Source: an uncultured beta proteobacterium (GTDB lineage Bacteria; Pseudomonadota; Gammaproteobacteria; Burkholderiales; Burkholderiaceae_C). Taken from it: DNA of 35,282 nucleotides. The position numbers and the translations under genes are program-made. The stretch is from NCBI GenBank assembly GCA_903929815.1, contig CAIYWD010000201.1, positions 1 through 35,282 of the forward strand, written 5' to 3'. Every line of letters begins with the position of its first letter. Position 1 is the stretch's first letter. This document shows, piece by piece, positions 1 to 21,168 of this stretch. The notes beneath the pieces were generated by a model. It was given only the letters and a program-made list of their open reading frames with translations. It searched no databases and was not told where the DNA came from.

Positions 1-102
1 CACGCGCTAACCTCACTAAATGCGCTCACAGTTAACGGTGTGGCACGACAATGGCTGCAAAACCGTAGATTTGACCTTACTTGGGCAGCCAAAGCGGCTT
101 AG
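1..102 (+). CDS. C-terminal end of an unrecognised protein (truncated by window edge)
   Basis: Frame 1 is open from the first base to a TAG at 100-102 and gives 33 residues ending WAAKAA. The start lies outside the window, so neither length nor family can be judged, and I do not recognise the tail. It converges on the AIPR gene, whose stop lies 78 bp further on. I see no hairpin with a T-run in that short spacer. The reading could also be a chance open frame, because 33 codons is weak evidence. Confidence 0.3.
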   Translation, partial: HALTSLNALTVNGVARQWLQNRRFDLTWAAKAA

Positions 103-180
103 TCAATCGTACAGGTCGATGTTTTGTGTAAGGCAAACCGAACCATCATGGCATTGACATTCGCACGAAACCGAACGCTC

Positions 181-1950
181 TCAACGTACTTCCGGTATCC
201 CGTTCATGGGCGTGGTGTAGTGTGCTCCCAGTACCGCAACACGGCACTCCGGCTTTTTAGCCCATTCCGAAATCATGCGTCCGCTTGCCGTTCTGTGAAG
301 GACTTCGTTGACTTCCTTCGCCCAAATTGCGATTTGTTCGAGTAACTTATGAGAGACAGCCTGATTTGACCAAATAAGATTGAGATCCACCCGATCTCCA
401 ATCCTTTCGGCCAAAACTGCCACGGTGTAGGCAACCACATTGGCCTGAAACGCCTGAAACATGGGGCGCAGAATTTTTTGTGTATCCCTGAATAACTTCG
501 CTTTGGCGATCATGACCTTGTAGTCAGCCACATTTGGGAGGGCGATGTCGGACCCATCACTTGAGGTCAGGTCGGCCATAAACCGATCAAAATTTTTCTG
601 ATTGCCAAGACTCACGATGTCAGGTTTTTTTTGCCATGCATTGATGTACTTGGCCAGATCAGTCTTGGTGATTCTGCGTGCCGTGGGTATTGCTTCTTTC
701 AAAGCCTTGAGCTTGGCTGGTGTAGTTCCGTCGCGCGCCAACAGTGTGTTGTAACTGCCAGCCGCTCGTTCATAAAACCATTGTCCTACCCCATCCGGGC
801 AATATATGGTTCGTGACAGCCTTTCAATTTCAACATGAAACGGCTTGTTGGCAGAAAGATCGGATTGACGGATGGCATTTTGGCTATTGGCAAAACGCGA
901 TATGTCCGAAATCAGGGACTCCTCTTTCGCAGGTTCCTGCGCATGCATGACAATGATTTTTGCCGGTACACGAACGCGACTTAAATCTGTATCTGGATAT
1001 CTTCTTTTGGTAAAGTAAATCGAAGCAGTGGTTTGACCGCCATTGACAATCTGGAATCCTTTTATCCACGAAATTCCTGTCGAACCATCCAATGTTTTGC
1101 CAAAATGCAATTCGTCAGCCACAATGACAATGCCATTGTTGTAAGCCATGAAACGCCCTGGCTCATTGCGTAGCGTATTTTGAATACCTGCATTGACGCC
1201 TTTGCCTTTGGTGCTAAGAAATGATCGAACATTGGCCTCAAGTAACCTTGCACCAAACCTTTCGTATAAATATCGAAGTGCCACAGCAGGGAATGCAGCC
1301 AGAGCGTAGCCATAATCCTCATCACCGCCTGGGACGAAAATGCACGGCAAGGCACAACCCGATACTTCGTTGAAATCAACTATCAACTCGTCACGTGGCT
1401 TGCCCTCCGATAAATGGTGGTGTAGCCGTTCAATATCCATAACCTCAAGGCGCACAGATTTTTGGCCAATTTCGCGCGTTTTATAACTTTTTGATTTGGC
1501 AATCTTGTCAGTCAAAATAAAAACCCGAATTTGATCCAGGTCGTTGTAAATGGCTTGAAGTGTGTTGGCAAAGGATGCAATATCGCTTGACGGGTCAAGT
1601 GTTTGCACCATCTTCCCTTCTGCACATAAAGACAAAAAACGCAAGCATTGTTCCGCTGCCATTTTGGTTTCAGAGTCCGGTACCTGCGTGATTACATCGA
1701 CACCATCGTAAAGACTCACAAACAGGTCAAGCTGATCGTGGTCATCGGAAAGTGCATACCCACTCAAACGCAGGATGGCATTTCGGTATTGCCCACGGTG
1801 ATGGCAACCCACAGGTTCAAATGTCATTCCAATTTCGGTCATGTGCTGCATTACAACATCAGTGAAAGCAAATTCTGCAAAAAGAGATCCATCACTCATG
1901 TGTGACCTGACCTCGGCTTGTGTTTCAAGCAAAAAATCCAGTATTTTCAT
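181..1950 (-). CDS. AIPR family (abortive phage infection-type) protein, last gene of defence operon
   Basis: This 589-residue protein belongs by its motifs to the AIPR family (abortive infection/phage resistance). Seen: a block with NVRSFLS and GIQNTL near residues 240-260, the YNNG signature near 270-273 and QIVNGGQTT near 300-308, which together are typical of the family core. The first 200 residues include DQLDLFVS and RVFILTD strands that could form a nuclease-like fold, but I cannot assign catalytic residues. I place the start at the ATG two bases after the upstream stop. It has a GGGAG ribosome binding site ten bases before it. A TTG two codons upstream is possible but overlaps that stop. 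AIPR proteins recur beside Z1 helicases and MORC-like ATPases in predicted restriction-type systems. A role as effector or nuclease in phage defence is inference. Confidence 0.85.
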   Translation of the reverse strand: MKILDFLLETQAEVRSHMSDGSLFAEFAFTDVVMQHMTEIGMTFEPVGCHHRGQYRNAILRLSGYALSDDHDQLDLFVSLYDGVDVITQVPDSETKMAAEQCLRFLSLCAEGKMVQTLDPSSDIASFANTLQAIYNDLDQIRVFILTDKIAKSKSYKTREIGQKSVRLEVMDIERLHHHLSEGKPRDELIVDFNEVSGCALPCIFVPGGDEDYGYALAAFPAVALRYLYERFGARLLEANVRSFLSTKGKGVNAGIQNTLRNEPGRFMAYNNGIVIVADELHFGKTLDGSTGISWIKGFQIVNGGQTTASIYFTKRRYPDTDLSRVRVPAKIIVMHAQEPAKEESLISDISRFANSQNAIRQSDLSANKPFHVEIERLSRTIYCPDGVGQWFYERAAGSYNTLLARDGTTPAKLKALKEAIPTARRITKTDLAKYINAWQKKPDIVSLGNQKNFDRFMADLTSSDGSDIALPNVADYKVMIAKAKLFRDTQKILRPMFQAFQANVVAYTVAVLAERIGDRVDLNLIWSNQAVSHKLLEQIAIWAKEVNEVLHRTASGRMISEWAKKPECRVAVLGAHYTTPMNGIPEVR

Positions 1951-1952
1951 AC

Positions 1953-2957
1953 TCAAAGTACTCCCAATTGTTCCAGTGCAGTTCGTAAATCGACGTTGAA
2001 TTCTGGCACCCGATCTAGGTTGATTTCATAAGTGGCCTTGGTAATGCCTGCCGGCACGCGCCCCATTGTCAGCCTTGGAAAATTATCCTTGACCTCCATC
2101 ACATACATGCTTGTCACATTGAATCGGCGTGTATATTGATCACGATGTCCCTCGTAGTACCGTGCCCGAAGGAGTCTCTCGGCAAAATTTAGCCTCGACA
2201 CGGCATCGTCCAACATGGCTCTTTTCAGATCATCAACCATATCGGGTAGCGTTTTGCCGGTGGTGATTTGACGCAATCGCAGCCCTGCGATGTAGAGTGG
2301 CTGACGTATCGCATCATCAAGTTGCTCAAGTGATCCGATACGGGTAGGGAAACCGACAGGTGCCAGTGTGGTTTTGACCTCAATGGCACCAGTACCTATT
2401 TCAAAATCCTGAATACCATCCAGTGGCCCGACCCAGGCCTCGATGGCGGACGCTGCTGCCATGCCCGATTCCAGCATGAAGCCCAGTACCATCAACTCAC
2501 CGACCAGTCCAACTTCTGCCTCGTGGCTCAGAGCTTCAGATCCTTGTCGCATGAATTCCTGCCACGCGCGTACACGACCCAGGAAAATACGCAGCAACCG
2601 CGTAGCATCCGTATCCGATTCAGCATCGAGCAAATCGGTGATATCGCAAATCATGGCCATGAAAAGTTCAATGCCACCACTTTCCTTTCGAGTCAAAGCA
2701 ATCCAGGTGCGGCGCTCTTCCGACAAACTGACATGCTCAACAACAAAGCCCTGTCCTTCCGGAAATTTTTCAGCCACAGGTATCTGAACCGAGGTAAAGC
2801 CCACCAACAAGGATTCCTGGTTCCCAGGAAAGTGCCGACCCGCACTTAATGCGCAAGTACCAGCCCCAGTAACAGGAATGGTGCGCCATCCGGCACCGGT
2901 GTCTGAACCGGATAGCGATTCCCACGCAAGTGCAAATTCGTTACTCTGACGGGCCAT
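1953..2957 (-). CDS. PD-(D/E)XK nuclease-like protein (DUF4420-like)
   Basis: This 334-residue protein resembles the PD-(D/E)XK motif proteins often annotated DUF4420. Seen: Glu148 in the helix before GEL (153-155), then W-x-GPLDG (175-181), DFE (184-186) and an EVK triplet (193-195). That is the expected acidic-strand, acidic-x-Lys arrangement of a restriction-endonuclease fold. I chose the ATG inside the end of the Z1 gene, preceded by GGGAGCAGG, rather than a further-upstream alternative that would add 13 residues. This gives a 17-base overlap with Z1 and implies coupled translation. The AIPR start follows its stop after two bases. DNA cleavage is the expected activity by family. The substrate, and whether modified or unmodified DNA is the target, cannot be read from sequence. 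Confidence 0.82.
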   Translation of the reverse strand: MARQSNEFALAWESLSGSDTGAGWRTIPVTGAGTCALSAGRHFPGNQESLLVGFTSVQIPVAEKFPEGQGFVVEHVSLSEERRTWIALTRKESGGIELFMAMICDITDLLDAESDTDATRLLRIFLGRVRAWQEFMRQGSEALSHEAEVGLVGELMVLGFMLESGMAAASAIEAWVGPLDGIQDFEIGTGAIEVKTTLAPVGFPTRIGSLEQLDDAIRQPLYIAGLRLRQITTGKTLPDMVDDLKRAMLDDAVSRLNFAERLLRARYYEGHRDQYTRRFNVTSMYVMEVKDNFPRLTMGRVPAGITKATYEINLDRVPEFNVDLRTALEQLGVL

Positions 2958-5811
2958 ATTCCTGCTCCCAATAGAGGTGATCAACCTTGTACTCAACCTT
3001 CACGCCGGTCTCGCTGCACGGGAAACTCATGGCAAATGCGATGATGGGTTTTTCGTTGACAACAGTTGTTGCATTTTTGGTTTCACTGGGTGACAAGGGG
3101 TAAAGCAGAATAATTCCATGGTGCCTTGTCGGTGGGATGCCTTCCGTACCATAACCCCGAAGTTCCCGAATTTTCTGACCGCTGGGTCTCGTGGGGCGTG
3201 TGATACGGTTGCGTGCCAGATCCGGCTTCCATGCGGCCTGAGTGGCATCAAGAGCGCTTTTCCAGCCAGGGTAATCAAGGTCGATGGCTTCATCGCCAGG
3301 CTCAGTCAACACGCCGATGGTATAGCGATCGGCATTTCTATCGATTTTTCTAAACGGCAAGGTCGAAACGGTTATCCCGTTGGTAAAAGTGTAGGACGAA
3401 CTGGGGCGCCCCTCTGCCAACAAGGCCAGTGTCCAGCTTGTCAGTTCGTTTTTCTTGTTCATTTGAGAAACAAAATCGGCCAGAACGGTACTGTTGGCAC
3501 GATCGGCACCGGTTGGGGTTTTGTAGCTCCGCAAAAAATCAATGATGATTTCGGCGCCGACCTCTTTCCACAGGTACGAATGAGCCCAATGGTCGTCACC
3601 TTCATCGCGCCTGCGTCTTGGTGCTGTCTCCGAAGGATGACCAACCAGCTCCAACATTCGATTGGCTGCATCAAGATTGCGACCAAGTACATCGGGGGAT
3701 TGGTCAAACGATATGGTCTGAACAAAGCTGCCACTGTACGAAAGTCTGAGTGTTTGGGCGCTTCGCATTTTCAATGGTGATGTCACCACCAGAACGGGAT
3801 GGGACTCGACTTTCAACCCGTACTGCTCAGGTGTTGCACCACTCATGACCATGGTGTCAAATTCTTCACGTAACTCTTCGGATGCATCAGCAATATGACC
3901 AAACCATTCCACAAGTTCAGGGGTGGTGTAAAGCCGACAGAGATCAACATAGCCCGGGCGGTAACCAAACCACCGGCCCATTTGCATGAGTGTGTCGTAC
4001 ATTTTGGTGGTTCGCACAAAGTAACTCGTGCAAAGGCCCTCAAGCGTCAATCCCCGTGCAAGTTTGTCACCACCAATGGCGATCACCTTGAGCCCTTTTT
4101 CACCATGCTCGGCGTAATCCAGTGCATCCTTGGCTGTTCCGTTGATCATCCGGACTTGAATGTCAGATAAAACGTCCGGTAATGCTGCGCATATTTCCGC
4201 CCAAGTGGGGACTTTGTGCGTTCCACCAGCTTCGGGAACAAGACGGGCCAAATCGGCACATACAGGAACGAAATCATGGTGCCACAGGGTTTCGAGTTGG
4301 CACAGCAGCTCTTCGTGCCCAATGCTACGTGTGAGCCGTTGCTTCATGCGCTTGATGGTCGCTTCAACCTGACCATGCACGGCATGTTGAACCTTGACGA
4401 AACGGGTCACATGAATGAGCATCGAGGAATGTTCATTGCCTTGTCCACGACACACACGGGCTGCTGTTGCCAGGACGAATGACGCAACGGCTTCATAAAG
4501 CGAGGGTGGAAGGGTTTCCTGCCCCCTGTAAATTGGAACGTGCTCCTTGTTGTGCCTGGGTGGCATCCATCCACCTGAATCGGCCTGATTGACATGGTCA
4601 AAAACATCACGCATCAGCGGCAGGCCACCGCTTCTACCTTCCGTGGTGCGCAAACCAAAAACACGCGCAGGTCCGACATAGTTTGACGGCGCAGCAAGGT
4701 TAATGATGAATGACCTTGGAAAGAGGTCATGGCCTTCCTCGGTGGTTGCATTGCGCCGATGAATGAAGATGTTGGCAAACGGTGTGGCGGTATAACCAAC
4801 ATAGGCTTTCTTCTCAAACGCATGCAGTATTTTTCGGATCAATCCGTTGATGGCCCTGGGCTGATGGTCGTCGGCCGGTGTGCCGTCAGCATTGAACAGT
4901 TGCTCCCCCGTATCAACTGATGCGTTGTCGGCCTCATCGTCAATGACAAGCAAGGGAAGTCGGGTAACGATGCGGCATCTGGTGGCTGCATCTGTCGTAT
5001 CGGCAACGTGCCCCTGAATCCATTTAAGAAGCCGGGTCAGAACAGACTTGTTTTTCTTGACCACAAAAAGCCAGGGACGCTCTTCGGGCGAAATGGCAAA
5101 ATTTCTGGCGACACGCGTGTTGAAGTCACCGTTGTTGGCGCGCGTTGTGGCACAGTGCGGATGAATGTTGGGGTCACTGTCGATCTCGGCTACACCTACC
5201 AACTTGCCGGGGTCACGATTTGCCGAAGTTTCATAACCCAGAAAACTTTCTTCCAGCCGGATTTGTGTCTGGGATCGCAGGTTGTTGTGCAACCCGGCAA
5301 GCACGATGATGACCTTGTAGCCGGCATCGGCGGCTTTGCACACCAGCCCCGCGTAGTTGCCTGTTTTGCCCGACTGAACGTGTCCCACCACAAGGCCGCG
5401 CCGATCCCATGAACCCGTTCGCCTGGGGTCTTCCATCAACGCCAGAATCCTGTCTGTCGATTCGTCCAGTGCGGCCACGACATCGACCGCAATCTTGCGT
5501 TCAAGAAAACCCTGGTAGCGCTGCCAGTAGCGCCAGTCCTTCTTGCGTGAAGCGACCAGCCAAGGCTCATGACCTTGCGAATTTTCAAGCGATGAATCCT
5601 TGCCAATCCAGTAGCTGAAACGGCGAATGAGTTCGGCACAGGCAGCGCTTTGGTCGATGCCATCAGGGTAGGCATTGCCAAGCGTCAGGGCGGCAAGCCT
5701 GACCTTGTCGGCAACAAGTGCCGGTGTCACATCGGATTTGGCACTTTCTGCCTGCAGCAAGGTTTGTGCAATGGTCATCACGGCAGACAGGGATTTGTTG
5801 AGTTCAGTCAT
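2941..5811 (-). CDS. Z1-domain superfamily II helicase/ATPase
   Basis: This 956-residue protein is the motor of the predicted defence complex. Seen in order: Walker A GHVQSGKT (143-150), Walker B with DDEAD (291-295), the TATPFANI motif III region (341-348), GGDKLARGLTLEG (580-592) and an arginine-finger motif VI, MGRWFGYRPGY (611-621). The last two are hallmarks of the Z1 domain (endonuclease Z1-type SF2 helicases). The C-terminal 300 residues have no motif I recognise. A 143-bp spacer separates it from the upstream ATPase gene, the only real gap in the operon, while its 3' end overlaps the nuclease gene. Z1 proteins are known from neighbourhoods with MORC-like ATPases, PD-(D/E)XK and AIPR genes. 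Translocation along or remodelling of invading DNA is inferred from the family. Confidence 0.92.
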   Translation of the reverse strand: MTELNKSLSAVMTIAQTLLQAESAKSDVTPALVADKVRLAALTLGNAYPDGIDQSAACAELIRRFSYWIGKDSSLENSQGHEPWLVASRKKDWRYWQRYQGFLERKIAVDVVAALDESTDRILALMEDPRRTGSWDRRGLVVGHVQSGKTGNYAGLVCKAADAGYKVIIVLAGLHNNLRSQTQIRLEESFLGYETSANRDPGKLVGVAEIDSDPNIHPHCATTRANNGDFNTRVARNFAISPEERPWLFVVKKNKSVLTRLLKWIQGHVADTTDAATRCRIVTRLPLLVIDDEADNASVDTGEQLFNADGTPADDHQPRAINGLIRKILHAFEKKAYVGYTATPFANIFIHRRNATTEEGHDLFPRSFIINLAAPSNYVGPARVFGLRTTEGRSGGLPLMRDVFDHVNQADSGGWMPPRHNKEHVPIYRGQETLPPSLYEAVASFVLATAARVCRGQGNEHSSMLIHVTRFVKVQHAVHGQVEATIKRMKQRLTRSIGHEELLCQLETLWHHDFVPVCADLARLVPEAGGTHKVPTWAEICAALPDVLSDIQVRMINGTAKDALDYAEHGEKGLKVIAIGGDKLARGLTLEGLCTSYFVRTTKMYDTLMQMGRWFGYRPGYVDLCRLYTTPELVEWFGHIADASEELREEFDTMVMSGATPEQYGLKVESHPVLVVTSPLKMRSAQTLRLSYSGSFVQTISFDQSPDVLGRNLDAANRMLELVGHPSETAPRRRRDEGDDHWAHSYLWKEVGAEIIIDFLRSYKTPTGADRANSTVLADFVSQMNKKNELTSWTLALLAEGRPSSSYTFTNGITVSTLPFRKIDRNADRYTIGVLTEPGDEAIDLDYPGWKSALDATQAAWKPDLARNRITRPTRPSGQKIRELRGYGTEGIPPTRHHGIILLYPLSPSETKNATTVVNEKPIIAFAMSFPCSETGVKVEYKVDHLYWEQEYGPSE

Positions 5812-5954
5812 ATCAGCGGTTGGCCGGTTGGCAGTAGGATTTTTACCGTAAAAAAATCAAAAACAATAGCGCACTATGCAGACTGGACAAGCGATAGCGC
5901 TGTTTTCGATGCCATTGATCATGTACAAAATTGCCCCTTTCAACGTGGATGTGC

Positions 5955-7463
5955 CTACGTCGCATTCGATGGTGAACCTGTCATTGGCAGGGCAGCTACG
6001 AGCGCTGGGTAATTTTGAAAGGGTTCTGTTGACAGCAAGGTGCGCCGTGCATTGTCCCAACTCATGCCCTTGCGCCCGGTCATGTCTTCAAACAAGGTCA
6101 TCAGCACACCCACAATGGCTTCGGGTGGTTCACCGGCAAAACCGGTTTGTGGTGTATCTTTGTTCTCGGCGGTATCCAGCCAGATACGCTGCACTGGAAC
6201 GGTCTCTTCAATCACACGCAGCATGGCACGAACGGCAGGCAGCATTTCCCCAGCCCCATCCAGCACGGCGGATACGGCAGGATGCTGGTTGTCGATACGG
6301 TAGCGTGTGCCTGATGGTGCGTGTTCAACACGCCAGGCTTGCTCAAGGGGTGCGCTGCCGGGCGTGTACGCGCCACGGTAAGCAAAAACGCGCCGCGCCC
6401 TGTTGCGGGTTTCCTCTGCAAATTGGGTCAACCAGGAACGCAGTGCGACGGGTGGGCGTGCAGTGGATTTGCGGATGTCGATTTTCCACGCTGCATCTGC
6501 GGTGTTGGGGATGTCAAGCCGAATTCTGGCCAGGCGCAATGTTTCGTCACGGTTCCACGCACGTCCCTGCCCCAGACCGAGCCATCCACCTGCCACCAGC
6601 AGTCGCATGTTGCGATACACATAAAAGCCTTGTTGCGCAGTCCATCCTTCGGGGCCTGCGCCAGAATCAAATGCTTCGGGTGTGAGTTTGTCCTTGTGGG
6701 GCAGCACATGGCATTCAATTTCAACAGTGCCTGCATCGGTACGTTTTCTTTCAATCGGCGAGTGCCACGGCTTGGCTGCATGTTTGCACATGAAGGGATC
6801 CCAGGGCGTGATGGAGCGGCCATTCAGGTGGATTCGCAACCGTGGACAAGACCCGTCCTGCAGGCGGTGAAAAACCATGGCAAGATGGGCATGAACCCTG
6901 TCAATCAGATCGTTGTAGTCATCCACACCGTAGCCACCAGAGACAATTCTGTCCAGGTTTTCCCACAGAACCAAAGTCCCTGACACTTGTTCTCTCAGGG
7001 CAGACAGAAAATTTTCCGAACCCGCAGCAGGCCCCTCAAACAACAACCAGCCGGCATCAGGGCTACAGGCCAGTGCATCCAGATCCCATCGCAGGCAGGC
7101 AGGTTTCTCACCTTTTTTAACACTTGCGACCGTCAGCCTTCGACACTGTGACAACGAGGCTGTTTTCAGCCCCATGCCAAAGCGGCCAAGATCACCGGCG
7201 GTTCGGGTGTCCAGTGGACTTTTATCGCCGAGCCTCATGGCAGATTCCAGCTCGGCATCGGTCATGCCAATGCCATTGTCAAGCATTGTCACGCGGCTGG
7301 CTGTGCCGTGCCATGAAAAATCCAGTCGCACTTCGGTGGCATTTGCCGAAATGCTGTTGTCAATGATGTCTGCCACAGCGGCAGCGGTGGTGTACCCTAG
7401 GCCACGGAGCGATTCGAGCATGGCACCTGCGCGTGGGGGTGCATATCGTGTGTTGGGGATCAT
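5955..7463 (-). CDS. MORC/MutL-like GHKL ATPase (paraMORC)
   Basis: This 502-residue protein has a complete GHKL ATP-binding fold. Seen: the N-box region [13 protein letters not shown] with DNS at 35-37, the G1 box DNGIGM (62-67) and the G2 box [11 protein letters not shown] (93-103). [12 protein letters not shown] strand (162-172) follows, and an S5-like second domain with [16 protein letters not shown] (279-294) and WKIDIRKS (326-333), whose lysine is the likely gamma-phosphate sensor. The GHKL plus S5 pairing is shared by MutL, gyrase B and MORC proteins, which close as ATP-driven clamps on DNA. The canonical N-box acidic residue appears as Asp in DIIDNS. Its ATG overlaps the stop of the sigma-factor gene as ATGA. 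No endonuclease domain is evident, so I expect it to act with Z1 and the PD-(D/E)XK protein as ATP-dependent clamp or loader. Confidence 0.88.
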
Positions 7464-10252
7464 TTCCAGTAACCTTTACCTGGGAAGTATTCAAAACCGA
7501 ATTCCGTGAGCTTGCGGATCACTTGATTGTGGCGGTTATCACAGTCATCCATGATTTCAACCCAAAGCGAACCATCTTCCTTGTGGCGATCATCAATCAC
7601 ATTGATGCCAAAAACAACCATCATTTTCAGAAAGCGGTCAAGCAAGAGGGGATTTGCATCTGTTTTCTCAAGATGGCGGTCGTCATTCGTGACGTCTGAT
7701 GCATCGGTGGCATCCGTTGGGGCAACACGTTCTTGTCCATTCCCTGTTGGGTTTTTTGGGTATATCTCATGGAATGCTTCTCTGGAATGGAACCTTGGAA
7801 TTACAGTTGTATCAAGTTTCCGTTCCATTCCAACTTGGCTCTGGGCTTTTTTTATGCAATTGCCTTGATTTCGAAGAATAATTTGTCTTATGTCCCTGAG
7901 CGCTTGAGCTTCAATCTGACGAATCCTCTCGCGTGAGAGGTCAAATGTTCGTGCAATCTCTTCCAGCGTATATTCATCCAGGCCACCAACAGCAAATCTC
8001 ATGCGCAACACTTGAGCTTGATGTACTGTGAGTTGATTGAGGAGTGAATCAACACGTTTATGGGATTCCCTGGCACAAACATCATCATAAGGGTCAGCCA
8101 GCGCGTGGTCAATCATCAATTCGGTGGGGATGGTTCCAATATCCTCAGACCTTGTGATATGAACTGTCTCCAATGATGCTCGCAGAATGGCCGGAATGTT
8201 GCGCACAGGTATGGACAAGCGTTCGGCAAGCTCTGTCACGGTCGGCGTGCGACCCGTGGCACCTTCAACAGCATCCATCTCTCGCAATATGCGCTGCGAA
8301 GTTTCATGAGCATGCGCAGGGAGTCTCACGACACGGCAATGGTCGGCAACCGAACGGGCAATTTGCTGGCGTATCCACCACGTTGCCATGGTTGAAAACT
8401 TGAAACCACGTTTGTAGTCAAATTTTTCGACGGCCTTCATCAACCCCAGGTTGCCCTCCTGAATCAAATCGTTGAAGTGCATACCGCTTTTTAAGTACCG
8501 TTTGGCGATGGAGATGACCAGGCGCAAATTGGCCTCAATCATTTTGACTTTGGCCTGGGCTGTACACAATGCACCAGCCACCATGCGCTGATTCAGTTTT
8601 TTGAGGTCATGGAGTGGCACCACAAGGCGGACCTGAAAATCAGCCATCCGTTGTTGGATTTCATGCAACGTATCCATGTTGTGGCGCAGGGCGGCACTCC
8701 ATGGCTGATCTGCATTGGCCTGTGCAACGAACCAGTGGCCATCAAGCCAGGGGGCACTTGTCTTGTTACCGCCGCCCAAAGTGGTGTCATACAGATGGGA
8801 TGGGTAGCCACACACGTCCACCATGATGCGCCGAAAATTTCTCTCTTGTGCCTGAATGTTTGTCACTTGCCCACCCAGCATGGCACACAACCTGTCTATC
8901 GTCGCGGCAGTCAATCCAAGGGTCAGGATTTCATCGTTCAAACCCTTTTGTGCCTGGAGATGGCTGGCTGATCCGTAACCCTCTTGATGACAGGCGATGG
9001 TGACGGCTTCAAACTGTTGGCGAAGTGCATCAAGGCGTTTCATGACTTCAACCATGCGATCGCCAGAGCTTTGCACATTCACTCCGTCACTGTCGCTTGT
9101 GGGATTGACCAGGCTATCTTCGACACCTGCAAAGGTATCAGCATCGCTGGCTTTTTTACCGTCATAGTCGTCATCAGAGACAACACCACGCCATGGGATA
9201 AGGCCTGCGCGTATTTCTTCGCCCAGCCTGAGAATTTCAGCAACCACGCACGGTACTGAAGCAATGACATTGAGAACCTCAAGGCGGCCGTTTTCCATCT
9301 GCCTGCCAAGTTCAACTTCCCCTGCGGCCGTCAGCAAGTTGATTTTTTGTGTCTCACGAAAATAGATTCGCAATGGATCATTGTCATGTGCAGTTATGCC
9401 ATTCATGACATCCAGGGCAGAAGAGATGGCATCTTCTTCCAGGACAGTCTCCTGCGGGTCTGTGAAAACATGGTAGTTTTCATCGTATGAGCTGTATTCA
9501 AATCGCTCATCGGTTTCAGCCCCAAGATCATGAATGACACGGTGCAACAGTGCGTTGGTTTCCTCATCCGTGGAACCGTCAGGTTTCATGGTCAGTTCTT
9601 CAACCAGCGCATCTGGAACACTGCCTTCACGCAAGGCACGCAACAGCATATTACGAAGCCGATCATTTGCCTCGATGTCATCCACAGACAGAAATTTTGC
9701 TGAACGCTCAGGAAGAAAGGCATCGATATCCGACCAATCTTCCGATGTGTCGATGGGTATGTGGCTGGATATGGCTGCATCGGTTTTCGCTGCCGATTCA
9801 GCCAACGATGGTTCGCTACTGTGCAGGGTGACTGAAACCTCTGGCTCCCAAGCAAACAGGTCGCAGACATCCAGAGCGTCCGCACAGTGGGATGAAGTCA
9901 TCGCCAGGCAACCCTGTGAGCCACTTGGGGTTACATCATGGTGTTCACGATGGAGACACTCAAGTACCCTGGCAGCATCGGCTGCACCGAAGGCCACAGC
10001 AATGTTCAGCGCATTACGGCCGTGCGGGTCAAGACTTTGGTGGCTGGCACCCGCTTCGATAAGCATGCTGCAAATTCTGGATTTGTTGTGCTTGGCAGCG
10101 AGCATCAACGGGGTGAAACCGTCGTTATCGCGGGCTTCAAGGTTGTCACCACGACGGATATGCAATTGAACTGAACTTTCAACCCCCGTCACAACAGCCA
10201 TCCTGAAAAGCCTGTTGAGGAGTACCGTGAACACGGGAGCTATGTCGCCCAC
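7460..10252 (-). CDS. Ankyrin-repeat / RpoD-like sigma70 fusion with extra C-terminal module
   Basis: This is a 930-residue chimera. Residues about 30-100 form two or so ankyrin repeats ([15 protein letters not shown], then [20 protein letters not shown]). Residues 100-285 are acidic and low in recognisable motifs. Residues 291-325 match sigma region 1.2 ([20 protein letters not shown]), followed by a long divergent non-conserved region. Residues 574-650 are a strong region 2 ([48 protein letters not shown]). Region 3 follows, then region 4 (740-795, with [22 protein letters not shown]). A tail after 860 ends in a separate module with [14 protein letters not shown] and [10 protein letters not shown]. 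The GTG start is supported by AGGTGA just upstream. An ATG 17 codons later is an alternative. It heads the operon and is coupled by ATGA to the ATPase gene. Regulation of the defence operon, or sensing of phage, is inference. Confidence 0.9.
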
Positions 10253-20704: not shown

Positions 20705-20752
20705 ACTCTCAAGAAGAGAAGGGTGTCTGCACACGCCGCTGAACCGCGACAA

Positions 20753-20797
20753 CTGAACCTTGGTTCAGGTGGGCAAGGTCGACCGAACCTTGGGTTC
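20753..20797. repeat. Two adjacent GAACC-TTG-GGTTC hairpins
   Basis: CTGAACCTTGGTTCAG (20753-20768) is a seven-base-pair stem with a two-base loop. GAACCTTGGGTTC (20785-20797) repeats the motif as a second stem. GGTCGACC lies between them. These may be a decayed bidirectional terminator or part of the surrounding element. No T-run follows immediately. Confidence 0.5.
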
Positions 20798-21168
20798 TTC
20801 TAACGCGAGAAGATCACGCAGGCACGGTAACATTCCAAGCCCTGGCTCAATGAGAATTGGTTCAATAAATACCAAGCCCAACGAACGCGGCAGACACTTT
20901 TATTTTAAGCATATATGGGCAGCTTTGACCATCGATCATCCAAATTTGCGCACAAATATCACACAAAATCACTCTTTAACTTGATTTTCAAGTTTTTTTT
21001 TCTGAGTTTGCTTATTTTGAAAAGAAATTTAAAATCAATAGCTTACATCAAAATTTTGATGAGTATTTGGCCAACCAATTTTGTAATCTTTTATAAATCA
21101 TTGGTTTGTAAAACAATTCCAACAGCCTCCCCGTATTGCATCCCCACTCTAACAAGCTATAAGTACAA

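Follow-up and report, generated by a model that had tools for sequence, protein, structure and literature searches.

MZA (mzaABCDE) is a bacterial anti-phage system reportedly first described by Gao and colleagues in 2020. Defence surveys catalogue it as a set of five genes, and the literature searched, a set with subscription papers mostly outside it, yielded no mechanism for it. In Miller et al. (2022), mzaABCDE is termed a validated system and mzaA a sigma factor; cytosine methylases and Vsr are frequent beside MORC genes in general (Iyer et al. 2008). Here, a five-gene operon was analyzed in a stretch of 35,282 bases (the window), the first part of contig CAIYWD010000201.1 (C201) in the genome of an uncultured beta proteobacterium (2.6 Mb, 283 contigs, completeness 97.5%). 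Judged by sequence, this operon is a complete copy of MZA. The operon itself is already known, and the linkage of its relatives to a C5 methyltransferase and a Vsr nuclease is a useful extension. We tentatively propose, at a little below an even chance, that the operon would act as an ATP-dependent restriction system sparing DNA that carries 5-methylcytosine from a partner DNA cytosine methyltransferase, with the promoter-reading sigma protein MzaA as its targeting or sensing subunit.

Identification of the operon as MZA

The best PADLOC and NCBIfam matches of the five proteins are MzaA to MzaE, in the same gene order and near full length. All five PADLOC models were matched (MzaA, 2.1e-68; MzaB, 7.3e-194; MzaC, 1162 bits; MzaD, 6.1e-61; MzaE, 4.8e-205), the best stretch of the MzaA match being residues 567-790 only. 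None of the operon proteins reaches the curated cut-off of the NCBIfam equivalogs NF041931-NF041935 (bits/cut-off: MzaA 458/800, MzaB 758/850, MzaC 1268/1500, MzaD 380/420, MzaE 887/1050). No MzaC reaches its cut-off in 369 genomes of the class (13 with a match) or in 398 genomes of the phylum (25 with a match) either. In our reading, these cut-offs enclose only a narrow group, and we file the operon as MZA in the broad sense.

An earlier note on this DNA had proposed five minus-strand open reading frames (ORFs), all of which lie where it placed them, with each protein family confirmed by Pfam. They encode the ankyrin-sigma70 protein MzaA with its C-terminal tail domain (7460..10252, 930 aa from GTG), the GHKL (MORC/MutL-like) ATPase MzaB (5955..7463, 502 aa), the helicase MzaC (2941..5811), the DUF4420 PD-(D/E)XK protein MzaD (1953..2996, 347 aa as the longest ORF, likely start ATG at 2957) and the AIPR protein MzaE (181..1956, 591 aa as the longest ORF, likely start ATG at 1950). 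The note had held the sigma factor to lie outside any defence system it could name with confidence; mzaA is instead the first gene of the known MZA operon.

Recurrence of the operon

From a search with the window MzaC that gave at least 588 matches, the best 80 loci were taken, picked by their likeness to that protein. The sigma gene is present in 68 of the 80 loci, and all five genes stand in unbroken A-B-C-D-E order in 66. The idea that only this genome carries the sigma gene was accordingly rejected.

The 12 loci without the sigma gene comprise seven that are cut by a contig edge, or nearly so, and five from Pseudomonas (L070, L073, L075, L077, L080). In these five, a C5 methyltransferase lies directly upstream of mzaB, after a protein of 328-424 residues (L070:222-1280, L073:5249-6421, L075:5370-6356, L077:5329-6378, L080:5116-6390). 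No Pfam family was found in the L073 member of this protein family, the sole member scanned.

A C5 methyltransferase and Vsr beside MZA in related loci

Relatives of the 532-residue C5 enzyme at the head of the L073 operon score above 250 bits in 53 of the 80 loci (family 1). Full-flank loci, those with 4 kb or more on each side, number 46, and a family-1 C5 methyltransferase occurs in 36 of them: 22 lie downstream and convergent (minus), 5 downstream on the same strand (plus) and 9 upstream (plus). A Vsr nuclease is found in 42 of the 46, usually adjoining the methyltransferase.

The specificity of this linkage was examined in 398 phylum genomes searched for MzaC and for the C5 enzyme of the window's own genome (E <= 1e-50 and 1e-60). 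MzaC was found in 19, the enzyme in 20 and both in 14. The enzyme is thus present in 14 of the 19 genomes with MzaC versus 6 of the 379 without it (Fisher p 1.8e-17; 2.7e-16 excluding the own genome). Own genome aside, 12 of 13 carry MzaC and the enzyme within the fetched stretch; in the remaining one (G627) they lie on separate contigs. The phylum sample and the 80 loci partly overlap (G526 and G482 are apparently the genomes of L093 and L098), and their counts are not independent.

In the window's own genome, the enzyme is encoded on another contig (C113:1388-2938); it is 49% identical to the L073 enzyme and matches Pfam DNA_methylase (2.3e-47). C113 has 3,007 bases and ends 69 bases past the enzyme's stop, and the mzaE stop lies 180 bases from the left edge of C201. 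In relatives, the place of this edge segment (1..180), just past mzaE, is often taken by a methyltransferase and/or vsr. Set end to end, C113 and C201 would bring the enzyme and mzaE into the convergent arrangement that is the commonest layout in relatives. Upstream of the methyltransferase, two small ORFs (C113:1-1270, L132) resemble, on visual inspection, a BrnT/BrnA toxin-antitoxin pair.

Several results weigh against a working partnership between methyltransferase and operon. The ends of C113 and C201 share no overlap, so that their adjacency is a guess, and no match to Vsr was found in the own genome. Two of the 46 full-flank loci (L042, L045) lack a C5 methyltransferase, although the L042 genome has one elsewhere. 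Distances between methyltransferases correlate only loosely with those between MzaC proteins (Mantel r 0.415, n=67; L136 and L138 were left out for sample overlap and L135 for want of a family-1 enzyme), versus 0.949 for MzaC and MzaB, which suggests that the methyltransferase has been exchanged more often than the core. Furthermore, the published five-gene MZA is said to have protected on its own, without a named methyltransferase. Together with the varying position and strand of the methyltransferase and the missing Vsr, the loose correlation and this reported protection would fit an alternative that we judge unlikely: methyltransferase and Vsr are mere defence-island neighbours, and the five genes alone form the system, without discrimination by DNA methylation. 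Neighbours of this kind would not be expected to show the concentration of the family-1 enzyme in MzaC genomes described above, nor to replace mzaA at the operon head, as the methyltransferase does in five loci. A C5 methyltransferase of any kind is moreover found in 44 of the 46 full-flank loci, a count weakened by its reliance on three additional queries that were themselves taken from loci lacking family 1.

That a C5 methyltransferase and Vsr accompany mzaA-type operons was not stated in the literature searched, although it may be in print. The linkage makes the MZA question testable: is DNA protected by the partner's methylation, and does the operon become toxic when that methylation is missing? 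It further argues for treating the methyltransferase as a sixth gene in annotation whenever MZA is transferred to another strain.

Conserved motifs of MzaB to MzaE

Conserved residues of MzaB, MzaC and MzaD are consistent with the proposed ATP-dependent restriction. In MzaC, the Walker A motif GHVQSGKT (residues 143-150; 5362..5385, minus strand) is invariant in 81 of 81 aligned proteins; the segment DTLMQMGRWFG (606-616) fits the SFII helicase motif DThhQXuRhFG, with its D, T, Q, R, F and G invariant in the same 81. MzaD matches Pfam DUF4420 (6.8e-72) and fits the E-D-ExK nuclease pattern, with E167, D197, E206 and K208 invariant in 79 aligned sequences; its putative active site, D197...E206-x-K208, lies at 2373..2408 (minus strand). 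MzaB matches HATPase_c_3 (1e-29), and N36, D62, G64, G66, G96 and G98 are invariant in 76 sequences, as are G279, R284 and R287 within residues 279-289, which fit the MORC motif GhXhhpXXRhl. MzaE does not add to this picture: in our reading, the usual place of its nuclease motif holds no conserved lysine, which counts against the restriction proposal. In four loci, the gene after mzaE encodes a further AIPR-like protein that is longer (∼880-940 aa) and scores 314-338 bits against MzaE (L045:15661-18366, L056:15476-18307, L066:15535-18333, L076:14472-17123).

MzaA, an ankyrin-sigma factor

MzaA carries ankyrin repeats (residues 19-97; 9962..10198; Pfam Ank_2, 3.8e-10), sigma region 2 for core binding, -10 reading and melting (571-638; 8339..8542; Sigma70_r2, 2.2e-20) and sigma region 4 with the -35 reading helix (737-790; 7883..8044; Sigma70_r4, 1.1e-15), all on the minus strand. 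The N-terminal ankyrin segment of the window protein matches 56 of 69 MzaA (68 loci and the window) at E < 1e-3, indicating that MzaA is usually an ankyrin-sigma fusion. Its alignment with RpoD runs from around residue 197, in a stretch corresponding to region 1.1, to residue 790; the ankyrin repeats have thus been added ahead of nearly a whole primary-type sigma. With regions 1.2 to 4 and their core-binding and promoter-reading residues, MzaA appears to be a primary-type sigma70. It is not the host's rpoD, a candidate that was rejected, the own RpoD being encoded on contig C103.

Across 206 columns of regions 2-4, the 69 MzaA have a mean pairwise identity of 0.43 and 14 invariant columns. R584, E585, R588, Q589, D403, Q406, W434, R441 and R451 (Escherichia coli numbering) are invariant in all 69; by the sigma70 numbering and roles that we assume for E. 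coli, the first four read the -35 element and D403 and Q406 bind core polymerase. Q437 is kept in 68 of 69 and Y430 in 63 of 69. A tree of regions 2-4 from the 69 MzaA, 23 RpoD and three further proteins (94 sequences) placed the 23 RpoD in one group (support 0.962) that also contains the MzaA of L079 and L041 and one extra protein. Mean terminal branches are 0.447 for MzaA versus 0.042 for RpoD. In L041:5896-8472 and L079:5975-8464, the ankyrin part is retained but the sigma part groups with housekeeping RpoD, which might reflect a renewed capture of rpoD. We read MzaA as a sigma factor probably under selection for binding polymerase and housekeeping-type promoters, fast-changing elsewhere and occasionally renewed from host rpoD. 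If MzaA targets DNA, a sigma factor of this kind, with promoter-reading residues kept amid fast change, would recognise foreign DNA in a novel manner.

The same data bear on two other roles for MzaA. It may serve purely for regulation, as a dedicated sigma factor that drives transcription of the mza operon and so delays or boosts restriction, by analogy with the controller proteins of type II restriction-modification systems. We regard this as possible but rather doubtful. The position of mzaA as first gene, the conservation of its promoter- and core-contact residues and the five loci where a methyltransferase stands in its place would all suit a regulator. However, it reads DNA with the same residues as RpoD, which would leave it little promoter specificity of its own, and the ATGA coupling of mzaA and mzaB suggests a fixed stoichiometry. 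In the sigma finger, moreover, the acidic tip lacks any acid residue in 27 of 69 MzaA and holds one in 20, and the window protein has no DDxD-like finger. Upstream of mzaA in 64 loci, the best sigma70-like promoter score equals that of shuffled sequence (7.86 and 7.86), in a test that is weak given uncertain starts. This last result counts against our own proposal too, as does the presence in the window MzaA of M at Y430 and A at T440 (in each case one of three such proteins).

Alternatively, MzaA could serve as a guard or decoy that copies the housekeeping sigma: phage anti-sigma or polymerase-takeover proteins would bind it and thereby release the BCDE nuclease. The long terminal branches beside frozen functional residues would agree with this, as would the two sigma parts inside the RpoD clade, apparently refreshed from the host. 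We nevertheless consider it improbable: a decoy does not need all four -35-reading residues, and long branches may reflect mere relaxed constraint.

The C-terminal tail of MzaA

The tail domain of the window MzaA (868-930; 7463..7651, minus strand) resembles the C-terminus of ZorC (PADLOC PDLC00613, 4.7e-9), the match spanning positions 23-86 of the 86-residue tail. By eye, a ZorC-like tail of ∼70 residues is present on 17 of 69 MzaA (window, L023, L026, L028-L031, L033, L034, L042, L048, L053, L074, L081, L083, L090, L099); phmmer with the window tail recovers 10 of 69, and 15 of the 17 tails match PDLC00613 at E <= 0.1. The small domain common to these tails and the ZorC C-terminus ends in GF..xPGKGYW[K/R]. 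Its fold is predicted to be alpha-beta-beta-alpha-beta-beta (mean pLDDT 79), with no clear match in the PDB, and it is absent from Pfam as scanned. The operon does not belong to Zorya: matches to ZorC models are confined to the C-terminal 60-80 residues, and none of the five proteins matched another Zor protein in the PADLOC scan. The passages seen of the Zorya paper (PMC11890865) give the ZorC C-terminus no function.

Genomic surroundings

The operon directly follows hisD, one of the same-strand genes hisD, pheA, serC and gyrA upstream of it, and thus sits in ordinary chromosome. The mzaB-mzaC gap is 143 bp (5812-5954), versus at most 48 bp in the 68 loci with mzaA, and no notable fold was found in it. 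A 6S RNA lies at 20720-20899 on the minus strand (Rfam RF00013, 49 bits, gathering 46.4).

Comparison with known systems

As the earlier note had supposed, the MzaB-MzaE quartet resembles the MORC-type restriction systems of Iyer et al. (2008): the helicase, nuclease and MORC motifs of their type 3 operon are all found here, and the neighbourhoods of those systems often include cytosine methylases and Vsr. Unlike the present operon with its MzaA, the text of that paper contains neither the word sigma nor the word ankyrin. A methyltransferase-bearing relative in Miller et al. (2022) has ∼20% identity to mzaBCDE and, according to that paper, mzaA occurs in few of their systems versus 68 of the 80 loci here. 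Another compared system has a PLD-fold nuclease and a B3 DNA-reading domain, and the passages seen on it mention neither an AIPR nor a sigma protein. The closest system is MZA (Gao et al. 2020), which has the same five proteins in the same order; this copy differs in scoring below all five NCBIfam cut-offs, in the ZorC-like tail of its MzaA and in the presence, in the same genome, of a C5 methyltransferase from the recurrent family.
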